Assembly: GCF_000336935.1 (NCBI RefSeq)
Contig: NZ_AOME01000054.1
Coordinates: forward strand, 106,770 to 170,769
Origin: Halococcus salifodinae DSM 8989
GTDB taxonomy: Archaea; Halobacteriota; Halobacteria; Halobacteriales; Halococcaceae
Direction: 5' to 3'
Length of the DNA: 64,000 bases
This document shows, piece by piece, positions 61,586 through 64,000 of this stretch; within the stretch, counting starts at the first letter, position 1, and the number at the start of each line of letters is the position of its first letter. The position numbers and the translations under genes are program-made. Under the pieces are notes generated by a model. That model was not told where the DNA came from. It searched no databases and saw only the letters and a list, made by a program, of their open reading frames with translations.

Positions 61586-61924
61586 CTACGAGCGACCCGC
61601 GCCATTGAGCCACTCGTCGGCCCACGCCTCGATCTCGTCGAAAACGGGACACAGCGCCTCGCCCTTCTCGGTGAGTCGATAATACGTGGCGATCGGGGCG
61701 TCCTCTTCGATCCGGCGATGCACGAGGTCCGCCGTCTGGAGATCATCGAGCACCCGCGAGAGGGTGCGTGAGCTCGCGTCGGTCGAGCGCTTGAGCTCGT
61801 TGAACCGCTTCTCGCCGTCTTGGAGGTCGTGGAGGACCACTAGACGCCACTGCGACCCGATCTGGTCGAGCGAATCCACGACGGCGCACGCCTCCTCGCC
61901 GTGGCGTGATTGCTGGGATGACAT
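61586..61924 (-). CDS. HxlR (DUF24) family redox-type regulator
   Basis: A 112-aa winged helix protein of the HxlR family: SLDQIGSQWRLVVLHDLQDGEKRFNELKRS, then SSRTLSRVLDDLQTADLVHRR and a beta wing with TYYRLTEKGEAL. Cys13 precedes the DNA-binding domain, the place of the redox-sensing Cys in bacterial YodB, CatR and HypR; a second Cys lies near the C-terminus (ALCPVF). It is divergent from the doxX genes. A GGTATC half-site of the doxX operators lies directly before its own ATG, suggesting autoregulation. Confidence 0.92.
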   Translation of the reverse strand: MSSQQSRHGEEACAVVDSLDQIGSQWRLVVLHDLQDGEKRFNELKRSTDASSRTLSRVLDDLQTADLVHRRIEEDAPIATYYRLTEKGEALCPVFDEIEAWADEWLNGAGRS

Positions 61925-61934
61925 CGGTGATACC
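61925..61934 (-). promoter_or_regulatory. Operator half-site at the HxlR gene start
   Basis: On the minus strand GGTATCACCG ends at the base before the ATG. GGTATC is one arm of the palindrome found at both doxX promoters; no second arm is visible here. The shared TATA run at 61959-61968 would put a minus-strand start near this site. Confidence 0.4.
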
Positions 61935-61958
61935 TGATTACATACGTGTCCGCGAGAG

Positions 61959-61968
61959 AATATATAAG
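61959..61968 (+). promoter_or_regulatory. TATA box of first doxX gene (possibly bidirectional)
   Basis: AATATATAAG is the strongest TATA-like element in this part of the window. Reading right, it lies about 21 bp before the operator palindrome at 61984; reading left, it is nearly symmetrical and could also serve the HxlR gene. Confidence 0.55.
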
Positions 61969-61983
61969 TTCGGATTCCAACTA

Positions 61984-62000
61984 GGTAACGTTGTGATACC
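61984..62000 (+). promoter_or_regulatory. Palindromic operator 1 (GGTAAC-N5-GATACC)
   Basis: Inverted repeat with arms GGTAAC and GATACC around 5 bp. It overlaps the predicted transcription start 25 bp after the TATA box. A near-identical element, again followed by GACT, occurs at 62619. Most likely the binding site of the divergent HxlR protein. Confidence 0.6.
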
Positions 62001-62072
62001 GACTTGCGGATACTCCGACGACACCCGGAATCGTTCGACGATCGATCGGCCGGTCTCCACGGGAAATCATCC

Positions 62073-62510
62073 GTGATCGCGCTCCAGGCTGGCATTTTCG
62101 ATGCGTCGGGCGCTGGAATCGTCTTCCTGGTCGCGCGGCTCCTGTTCGGTGGCGTGCTCGCGTTCATGGGTATGAACCACTTCATGAACGCCGACCAGAT
62201 GGTTCCCTACGCGGACGCGAAGGGCATCCCGGCCGCAAGTCTGCTGGTTCCGTTCAGCGGCGGCCAGCTGCTCTTCGGCGGCCTCGCAATCGTCTTCGGG
62301 ATCTATCCCGTGCTCGGGGGAGGCGCGATCGCCGTGTTCCTCCCGATCGCGGCGGTCATGATGCACGATTTCTGGGCGGTTTCCGAGGAGGAACAGCAGT
62401 CAGAGCTGACCGACTTCCTCAAGAACGTCGCCATGACCGGCGGGGCGCTGGCCTTCCTCGCGGCCGGCGGCGTCGACTGGCCGTTCGCGCTCGGCATCGG
62501 CGCGTTCTGA
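62073..62510 (+). CDS. DoxX family membrane protein
   Basis: A 145-aa four-helix membrane protein of the DoxX family. Signature parts are VARLLFGGVLAFMGMNHFM, LLVPFSGGQLLFGGLAIVFGIYP, the basic/acid MMHDFWAVSEEEQQSELTDFLKNVAMTGGALAFL. CatD, the bacterial relative, works with a thiol-dependent dioxygenase in quinone/catechol resistance. I chose GTG 62073 because helix 1 begins soon after; a TTG at 62004 would add a basic leader. A paralogue follows at 62699. Confidence 0.85.
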   Translation: MIALQAGIFDASGAGIVFLVARLLFGGVLAFMGMNHFMNADQMVPYADAKGIPAASLLVPFSGGQLLFGGLAIVFGIYPVLGGGAIAVFLPIAAVMMHDFWAVSEEEQQSELTDFLKNVAMTGGALAFLAAGGVDWPFALGIGAF

Positions 62511-62593
62511 TCGCGGTTTTGCCCCGTGGAAACGGATCGAGATAATCGGTGCGATGGCATCGATGTCACCTCGTTACATCGGCGTCCGGGAAG

Positions 62594-62601
62594 TGATATA
62601 C
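62594..62601 (+). promoter_or_regulatory. TATA box of second doxX gene
   Basis: TGATATAC lies about 21 bp before the operator at 62619, the same spacing as at the first doxX gene. Confidence 0.45.
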
Positions 62602-62618
62602 GTGCCCGACGCTAACCC

Positions 62619-62635
62619 GGTATCGAAGTGATACC
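62619..62635 (+). promoter_or_regulatory. Palindromic operator 2 (GGTATC-N5-GATACC)
   Basis: A perfect inverted repeat, arms GGTATC and GATACC with a 5-bp spacer, at the predicted transcription start of the second doxX gene. Like operator 1, it is followed by GACT and then by a related sequence up to the gene, showing that promoter and gene were duplicated together. Confidence 0.65.
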
Positions 62636-62698
62636 GACTACTACTCTCCGACGACGCATCGCGAATCGATCGCCGGCTCACGGGACGGTGAGTGTCTG

Positions 62699-63070
62699 AT
62701 GGGACGACTCTCGACACTCGGGCGCGCGCTGTTCGGCGGCGTACTCGCGTTCACCGCGATCGACAACCTCCGGGACATCGACGGGATGGCCGCGTACGCC
62801 GAGTCGAACGGCGTGCCCGCGGCCGACCGACTCGTGCCGCTTTCGAGCGGCATGTTGCTGGCCGGCAGTCTCGGGGTCGTCCTCGGTCGTGCCCCGCGGC
62901 TGTCCGCCGGCGCGATCGCGGCGTTTCTCGTCGGCGTGACGCCCACGATGCACGACTTCTGGAACCGGGAGGACGGGGAGCGCGAACAGCAGGTGATCCA
63001 CTTCCTGAAGAACACCGCGCTGCTCGGCGGTGCGCTCTTTTTCCTCTCGCGCGGTCCCGCCGACGAATAG
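62699..63070 (+). CDS. DoxX family membrane protein (paralogue)
   Basis: A 123-aa relative of the previous gene: LGRALFGGVLAFTAIDNLRD, LVPLSSGMLLAGSLGVVLG, PTMHDFWNREDGEREQQVIHFLKNTALLGGALFFL. The HDFW and HFLKN blocks align with HDFW and DFLKN of the upstream copy. It lacks the upstream gene's longer N-terminus and C-terminus. The ATG at 62699 is the only good start. It is followed by the VOC gene after 29 bp. Confidence 0.85.
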   Translation: MGRLSTLGRALFGGVLAFTAIDNLRDIDGMAAYAESNGVPAADRLVPLSSGMLLAGSLGVVLGRAPRLSAGAIAAFLVGVTPTMHDFWNREDGEREQQVIHFLKNTALLGGALFFLSRGPADE

Positions 63071-63099
63071 CTCGCGAAGCCACCCCGAATTTTCGATTT

Positions 63100-63588
63100 A
63101 TGCCAGACACACCACCCACCACCGGCCTGCACCACGTGACGAACATCTGTACCGACATGGAACGGACGAAGGAGTTCTACGAGGAGGTGCTCGGGTTCCA
63201 TACCGTCAAAATGACCGAGAACTACGACGACCCAGGAACACCGCACTACTACTTCTCGCTGACGCCCGAGGGCGAACCCGGGATGACGGTGACGTACTTC
63301 GAGTACCCGAACTCGCAGGGCCAGCCCGGTCCGGGGGCGTCCCACCACTTCGCCATCGGGGTCGAGAACGAGGAGACCCTTCGAGAGTGGCGCGAGCACC
63401 TGATGGACCACGACGTTCGCGTGTCGCGCGTTCGTGACCGCACCTATTTCAAGAGCATCTACTTCAACGATCCCGACGGGCTGGTGTTCGAGATCGCCAC
63501 GCATGGCCCGGGGTTCACCGTCGACGAGGCTGAACCGGGCAGCGAGAAGATCGACTCGCCGGACGAGCGGGGCGGCCCAACAGCGTGA
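63100..63588 (+). CDS. VOC family ring-cleaving dioxygenase/glyoxalase-like protein
   Basis: A 162-aa single VOC domain. It starts TGLHHVTNICTDMERTKEFYEEVLGF, the start of extradiol-dioxygenase-like (CatE/MhqO) VOC proteins. Metal ligands are the His in LHHVT, the His in ASHHFAIGV and the Glu in GLVFEIATHGPG. Bacterial CatE-type enzymes usually have two VOC halves (about 300 aa); only one is present, so it would act as a dimer or differ in reaction. Its stop overlaps the next gene by 4 bp (GTGA). Confidence 0.88.
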   Translation: MPDTPPTTGLHHVTNICTDMERTKEFYEEVLGFHTVKMTENYDDPGTPHYYFSLTPEGEPGMTVTYFEYPNSQGQPGPGASHHFAIGVENEETLREWREHLMDHDVRVSRVRDRTYFKSIYFNDPDGLVFEIATHGPGFTVDEAEPGSEKIDSPDERGGPTA

Positions 63589-64000
63589 CCCGCATCGATC
63601 CCGACGAGCTCGACGGCTCGCTGTACCGTACGCTCGCGGGCGCGGTGATCCCGCGGCCGATCGCGTGGGTGAGCTCGCTCTCCCCGGAAGGCGTCGAGAA
63701 CCTCGCGCCGTACTCGTTTTTCAACGTCGTCAGTACGTCGCCGCCGGTCGTGATGTTCGCGCCGACCGATCGATCGAATCAGCCCGAGGGCCTCTCGGAT
63801 ACGGCGCGTAACGCGCTCGACACCGAGGAGTTCGTCGTCAACGTCGTCACCGAGCCGCTCGCCGAGGCGATGAACGTCACGAGCGCGACGCTTCCACCGG
63901 AGGAAAGCGAGTTCGATCACGCAAGTCTCGAACGGACAGCCTCCGAAACGGTCGCGCCGCCGCGGGTCGCCGTGGCCGAGGTCGCGTTCGAGTGCGAGCT
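63585..64000 (+). CDS. Flavin reductase-like FMN-binding protein (partial, runs off right edge)
   Basis: N-terminal 138 residues of a FMN-binding split-barrel protein of the flavin reductase/DIM6 type. The start is GTG, giving MTRIDPDELDGSLYRTLAGA. Conserved features are IPRPIAWVSSLSPEGVENLAPYSFFNVVSTSPPVVMF and FVVNVVTEPLAEAMN, the flavin-binding strands. Translationally coupled to the VOC gene, it may reduce quinone or flavin in the same stress response (inference). Confidence 0.88.
   Translation, partial: MTRIDPDELDGSLYRTLAGAVIPRPIAWVSSLSPEGVENLAPYSFFNVVSTSPPVVMFAPTDRSNQPEGLSDTARNALDTEEFVVNVVTEPLAEAMNVTSATLPPEESEFDHASLERTASETVAPPRVAVAEVAFECE

Follow-up and report, generated by a model that had tools for sequence, protein, structure and literature searches.

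In Bacillus subtilis, two systems come closest to the locus described here: catDE, which like azoR1 and yodC is controlled by the HxlR/DUF24 regulators YodB and CatR and in which CatD is a DoxX-family protein, and the mhqNOP and mhqED operons of the MhqR regulon, of which mhqNOP encodes a nitroreductase, the dioxygenase MhqO and a DoxX protein. A third system is the QsrR regulon of Staphylococcus aureus; among the genes under YodB, CatR and QsrR are those for ring-cleavage dioxygenases, quinone reductases and nitroreductases (PMC6798810; PMC6212828). Haloarchaea possess a thiol-based redox regulator as well, OxsR of Haloferax (PMC9426492), but it belongs to the TrmB family and is unrelated to HxlR/DUF24. 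A published study has called a chemical-defence switch of this sort hard to find in archaea, and a search of the open-access literature, which was the scope of our survey, found no haloarchaeal HxlR-DoxX or MhqO-DoxX module.

Results

The window analysed here is a stretch of 64,000 nucleotides from Halococcus salifodinae DSM 8989, corresponding to bases 106770-170769 of contig C54 (281 kb) in the 4.2-Mb genome. Towards its end, a regulator gene is divergent from a series of genes on the opposite strand:

61586..61924, minus strand: HxlR/DUF24 regulator, 112 aa, with Cys13 and a second Cys at 92 (PF01638, E=6e-22)
62073..62510, plus strand: doxX1, DoxX-family membrane protein with a GTG start (PF07681, E=7e-8; 33.4 bits against a cut-off of 23.6)
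62699..63070, plus strand: doxX2, DoxX-family membrane protein (PF07681, E=4e-11; 43.9 bits against a cut-off of 23.6)
63100..63588, plus strand: single-domain VOC protein related to MhqO/PcpA, 162 aa (PF00903, E=6e-20), with predicted metal ligands His12, His83 and Glu131
63585-64184, plus strand: FMN split-barrel reductase, nitroreductase/flavin reductase-like (PF01613, E=1e-25), of which 63585..64000 is in the window

An earlier note on this DNA had described an HxlR gene with Cys13 divergent from two doxX genes, a VOC gene and a flavin reductase-like gene, and all five are indeed in place; the final 184 bases of the reductase gene, outside the window, were taken from the genome contig. All five proteins exceed the curated Pfam cut-offs, the PF01638 winged-helix domain of the regulator scoring 77.7 bits against a cut-off of 20.8. 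The VOC gene overlaps the reductase gene by 4 bases, and a gap of 29 bases separates the end of doxX2 from the VOC gene; doxX2, the VOC gene and the reductase gene are therefore very probably carried on one transcript, whereas doxX1 precedes a second promoter cassette. The two DoxX proteins are 47% identical. Elsewhere in the haloarchaea, the DoxX protein Hlac_0953 is reported as 12.6-fold changed in an Fe(III)-reduction proteome (PMC13104607).

Among all solved structures, the best match of the regulator is YodB (E=2.4e-16), followed by HypR/YybR, HxlR and QsrR; in this ranking by match score alone, the four reach 63, 56, 46 and 42 bits, respectively. The VOC protein matches the solved structures 1zsw (E=9e-36) and 3oaj of the MhqO group (E=2.6e-32), and its sequence matches extend to the hydroquinone dioxygenase PcpA and to the one-domain homogentisate dioxygenase 9u42. 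A structure search with its predicted model, which is only fair (pLDDT 77.5, pTM 0.74), gave 1zsw, 9u42 and MhqO as the top three. His12, His83 and Glu131 are unchanged in 24 sequences, two-domain bacterial relatives included, and align with the corresponding residues of MhqO and PcpA, which in PcpA we take to be the metal-ligand positions. Proteins of the MhqO/PcpA type have two VOC domains in one chain, and at this locus there is one only. An origin of the one-domain protein by fusion of the first and last quarters of MhqO was considered and rejected: in the two-domain Chloroflexi proteins, either half is by itself a complete relative (47-52% identity). Nor is it a two-domain catechol 2,3-dioxygenase of the CatE type, the catechol_2_3 model scoring 23 bits against a cut-off of 320; of the earlier label "CatE/MhqO-like", the second half is the better fit. 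The reductase is closest to the 2-nitrobenzoate nitroreductase 4z85 (E=9.5e-36).

Since the VOC protein is MhqO-like and the reductase nitroreductase-like, and DoxX accompanies them, the operon resembles mhqNOP more than catDE; judged by sequence, the unit looks more like mhqNOP/QsrR enzymes placed under a YodB-type regulator than like CatR-CatDE. With the YodB/CatR-catDE system it shares an HxlR/DUF24 regulator with an N-terminal cysteine, DoxX and VOC targets, and operators, here putative, over the promoter. It differs from that system in its one-domain VOC protein of the MhqO group, in the FMN split-barrel reductase within the operon, in the divergent regulator gene with a shared archaeal BRE/TATA promoter, and in having up to two doxX genes. 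The likeness to mhqNOP/mhqED lies in the nitroreductase, the MhqO-type dioxygenase and DoxX, to which a second copy of the module on contig C22 adds an MhqD-type carboxylesterase; the regulator in Bacillus, however, is of the MarR type, and the reductase here is a split-barrel protein. The QsrR regulon likewise sets a YodB-type cysteine repressor over ring-cleavage dioxygenases, a nitroreductase and quinone reductases (PMC6798810), but the haloarchaeal genes are compactly arranged as a divergent unit and have an archaeal promoter.

The regulatory DNA comprises the following elements:

61926..61941, unstranded: operator-like site A, GGTGATACCTGATTAC, adjoining the regulator start codon, from the footprint of 34 intergenic regions (consensus GTGTTACCTGGTNAC)
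61958..61968, unstranded: shared TATA region of two overlapping divergent BRE/TATA promoters, GAATATATAAG, from the EM motif search and the footprint
61984..62000, plus strand: operator-like site B, GGTAACGTTGTGATACC, an imperfect inverted repeat GGTATC-N5-GATACC at the expected transcription start of the operon (footprint consensus CCAGGTAAC...GATNNTACC)
62562..62577, unstranded: site A', where the duplicated cassette repeats site A
62593..62602, plus strand: TATA-like region of the duplicated cassette, GTGATATACG
62619..62635, plus strand: operator-like site B' before doxX2, GGTATC-GAAGT-GATACC, a perfect inverted repeat that two sister species also retain

An unsupervised EM motif search independently gave not operators but the divergent BRE/TATA promoter (log-likelihood 466, against 86-102 in shuffles), and a promoter-anchored alignment was thus used for the operators. 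The 34 regulator-operon intergenic regions align gap-free around the promoter, with conservation falling to about zero beyond +32 (about 32 bases past the promoter anchor), and the TATA boxes have site A on one side and site B on the other, a position over promoter and start that would suit operators. With both expected transcription starts covered, the arrangement fits repression together with autoregulation; we infer the sign of regulation from operator position, since in B. subtilis HxlR itself acts as an activator.

The cassette, of about 150 bp, is duplicated ahead of doxX2 (local alignment score 46; the highest among 500 shuffles was 24). In the doxX1/doxX2 interval (62511-62698), the whole divergent promoter cassette is copied, together with a remnant resembling the start region of the regulator. 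The "matching operators" of the earlier note are confirmed by AACTAGGTAACGTTGTGATACCGACT (61979) and AACCCGGTATCGAAGTGATACCGACT (62614), which are 81% identical and both within the duplicated cassette. Two sister species without doxX1 retain both cassettes, and this gene was therefore gained or lost between species. A regulon search of the organism's own genome with GGTANCGNNGTGATACC, allowing up to two mismatches, gave 19 matches, compared with 13 for the reversed control; none stood out other than the two sites of the unit, and module genes were absent around the other matches examined (L118, L119, L122-L124).

The regulator is present in 182 of the 194 sampled Halobacteriales genomes, often adjoining quinone-defence genes, and an orthologue of the VOC gene in 39. 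In 32 of these 39, an HxlR gene adjoins the VOC gene divergently: 29 have a divergent HxlR within 3 kb by listed positions, and three (G011, G077 and G082; loci L074, L079 and L080) were added by direct tblastn. Conservation of the unit in related genomes, which the earlier note had set as a check on its proposal, is thereby borne out. A divergent doxX lies within 1 kb in 67 of the 150 HxlR loci listed, where 0.12 would be expected, and a non-divergent one in a single locus. In a scan of named genomes, the VOC orthologue was seen in Halostagnicola, Halogranum, Halalkalicoccus, Natronosalvus, Halorubrum, Halorussus, Haladaptatus and others, where HxlR is usually divergent from it, and DoxX and/or the reductase in line with it; one haloarchaeal genus (f11/g13) has the VOC orthologue without an adjacent HxlR. 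In a sample of genomes without this VOC gene, the usual neighbour of the regulator is doxX, an MhqO homologue with two domains or an MhqD-like carboxylesterase, and some of its loci there have no such neighbour. The conserved pairing and switch sites across so many related archaea indicate that this is probably a real archaeal version of the chemical-defence switch. Of the features that the earlier note took to suggest a haloarchaeal variant, the pair of DoxX genes is restricted to this species, its nearest relatives with the unit having one. In Chloroflexi and Clostridiales, a two-domain VOC gene recurs beside an esterase or FMN split-barrel reductase gene (reductase pairs in L028, L034, L036, L038 and L040), so the enzyme set is not archaeal only.

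The second copy on C22 (L005 7731-12647) consists of an HxlR gene divergent from doxX, a gene for an MhqO homologue with both VOC domains (E=1.1e-81 against B. subtilis MhqO) and a carboxylesterase gene; alongside it, a further HxlR gene is divergent from a pair of SDR and two-domain VOC genes, with an operator-like site. Only four HxlR proteins in the genome are above the Pfam cut-off, and three of the four are in modules of this kind. The C22 copy is fuller than the window unit, and a closer counterpart. The window unit had been put forward as a possible counterpart of CatR/YodB-CatDE; this stands as far as YodB is the best solved relative of its regulator, while its gene set is nearer mhqNOP and the closer match is on C22. 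Transposase-like ORFs adjoin the C22 detoxification island. Its enzyme homologues in another genome (G163) are 83-86% identical, which together with these ORFs suggests recent transfer, or contamination; assembly contamination is listed as 2.33%, and the origin of C22 needs care.

Discussion

We consider it reasonably likely that these genes form a haloarchaeal module for quinone/electrophile detoxification, and that their divergent HxlR/DUF24 regulator is a repressor of the YodB/CatR/QsrR kind that works as a thiol switch. In its reduced form, the repressor would occupy as a dimer each of the two matching operators, lying over the two expected starts on either side of the shared divergent promoter, and would silence the doxX-(doxX)-VOC-reductase genes as well as its own. 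On the model of YodB, CatR and QsrR, quinones or other thiol-reactive compounds would modify the N-terminal cysteine, whereupon the dimer would leave the DNA and the genes would be induced. The FMN reductase may convert quinones into hydroquinones, the small VOC protein, as a one-domain relative of MhqO/PcpA, may cleave hydroquinone or quinone-thiol adducts, and DoxX would act in the membrane, probably beside the menaquinone pool. VOC proteins have many different activities, and the flavin reductase could instead supply another monooxygenase. That the module in its minimal form is a one-domain hydroquinone dioxygenase plus an FMN nitroreductase-like quinone reductase is an evenly balanced proposition, this estimate applying jointly to the larger reading.

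The N-terminal cysteine stands at the matching position in all 60 homologue matches read, as the earlier note had required of Cys13 in close homologues, and this position is that of Cys6 in YodB, Cys7 in CatR and Cys5 in QsrR (PMC6798810). Such a cysteine is common to the whole MarR/DUF24 family (PMC7835342) and is found also in the DUF24 formaldehyde activator HxlR; quinone sensing is thus not proven by it, and as a weak discriminator it permits thiol sensing without identifying the inducer. It bears nonetheless on a rather unlikely alternative, in which the unit does detoxify quinones or other aromatics but its regulator senses the ligand non-covalently, like MhqR, without a thiol switch. 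S. aureus MhqR has been proposed to bind quinones in a pocket in this manner (PMC6798810), a further study solved the crystal structure of this protein with 2-methylbenzoquinone in place (PMC12893000), and the MhqO- and MhqD-type genes beside this kind of regulator are MhqR targets in Bacillus. Against this, the regulator is an HxlR/DUF24 protein outside the MhqR branch, and its cysteine does not vary among the 60 matches.

Aldehyde defence, in which an HxlR-type formaldehyde/aldehyde sensor would drive a glyoxalase-like VOC enzyme, appears improbable. B. subtilis HxlR, of the same family, does sense formaldehyde, but this requires a Cys-x-Lys pair (Cys11-Lys13; PMC7835342), which is replaced by Cys-x-Val/Ile in all haloarchaeal relatives read. 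The VOC family also includes glyoxalase I, and the protein encoded here weakly matches lactoylglutathione lyase; it matches MhqO and 1zsw, however, at 1e-32 to 1e-35, no lactoylglutathione lyase is among its solved-structure matches at 1e-3, and the partners DoxX, FMN reductase and MhqD-like esterase are no aldehyde enzymes. Little probability also attaches to a response to broader oxidative or nitro-compound stress (hypochlorite, nitroaromatics) in which quinones would be incidental: DUF24 regulators such as HypR sense hypochlorite (PMC6943732), and the nearest relative of the reductase acts on a nitroaromatic, but the frequent partnership with a ring-cleaving-type dioxygenase points to aromatic diols. 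Respiratory-quinone maintenance, with the module serving menaquinone turnover, is very improbable and was set aside. It was suggested by menF and menD, which follow the unit at a distance of about 1.3 kb (L004 6303-9571) here and in three sister genomes; men genes by the module are, however, confined to the window's genus and were not found near it in loci of other genera, where many flanks span only 1.5 kb and the longer loci mainly decide.

Quinone/electrophile detoxification under a thiol-switched repressor is the reading that we retain. What is new is that known families, with a one-domain dioxygenase among them, are combined in a conserved arrangement around an archaeal promoter, and the regulator offers a concrete candidate with defined putative operators and one testable cysteine. 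If it is quinone-responsive, archaea would have their own equivalent of a thoroughly studied bacterial stress switch, a move of the module between domains would be suggested, and haloarchaeal genetics would have a compact inducible promoter.
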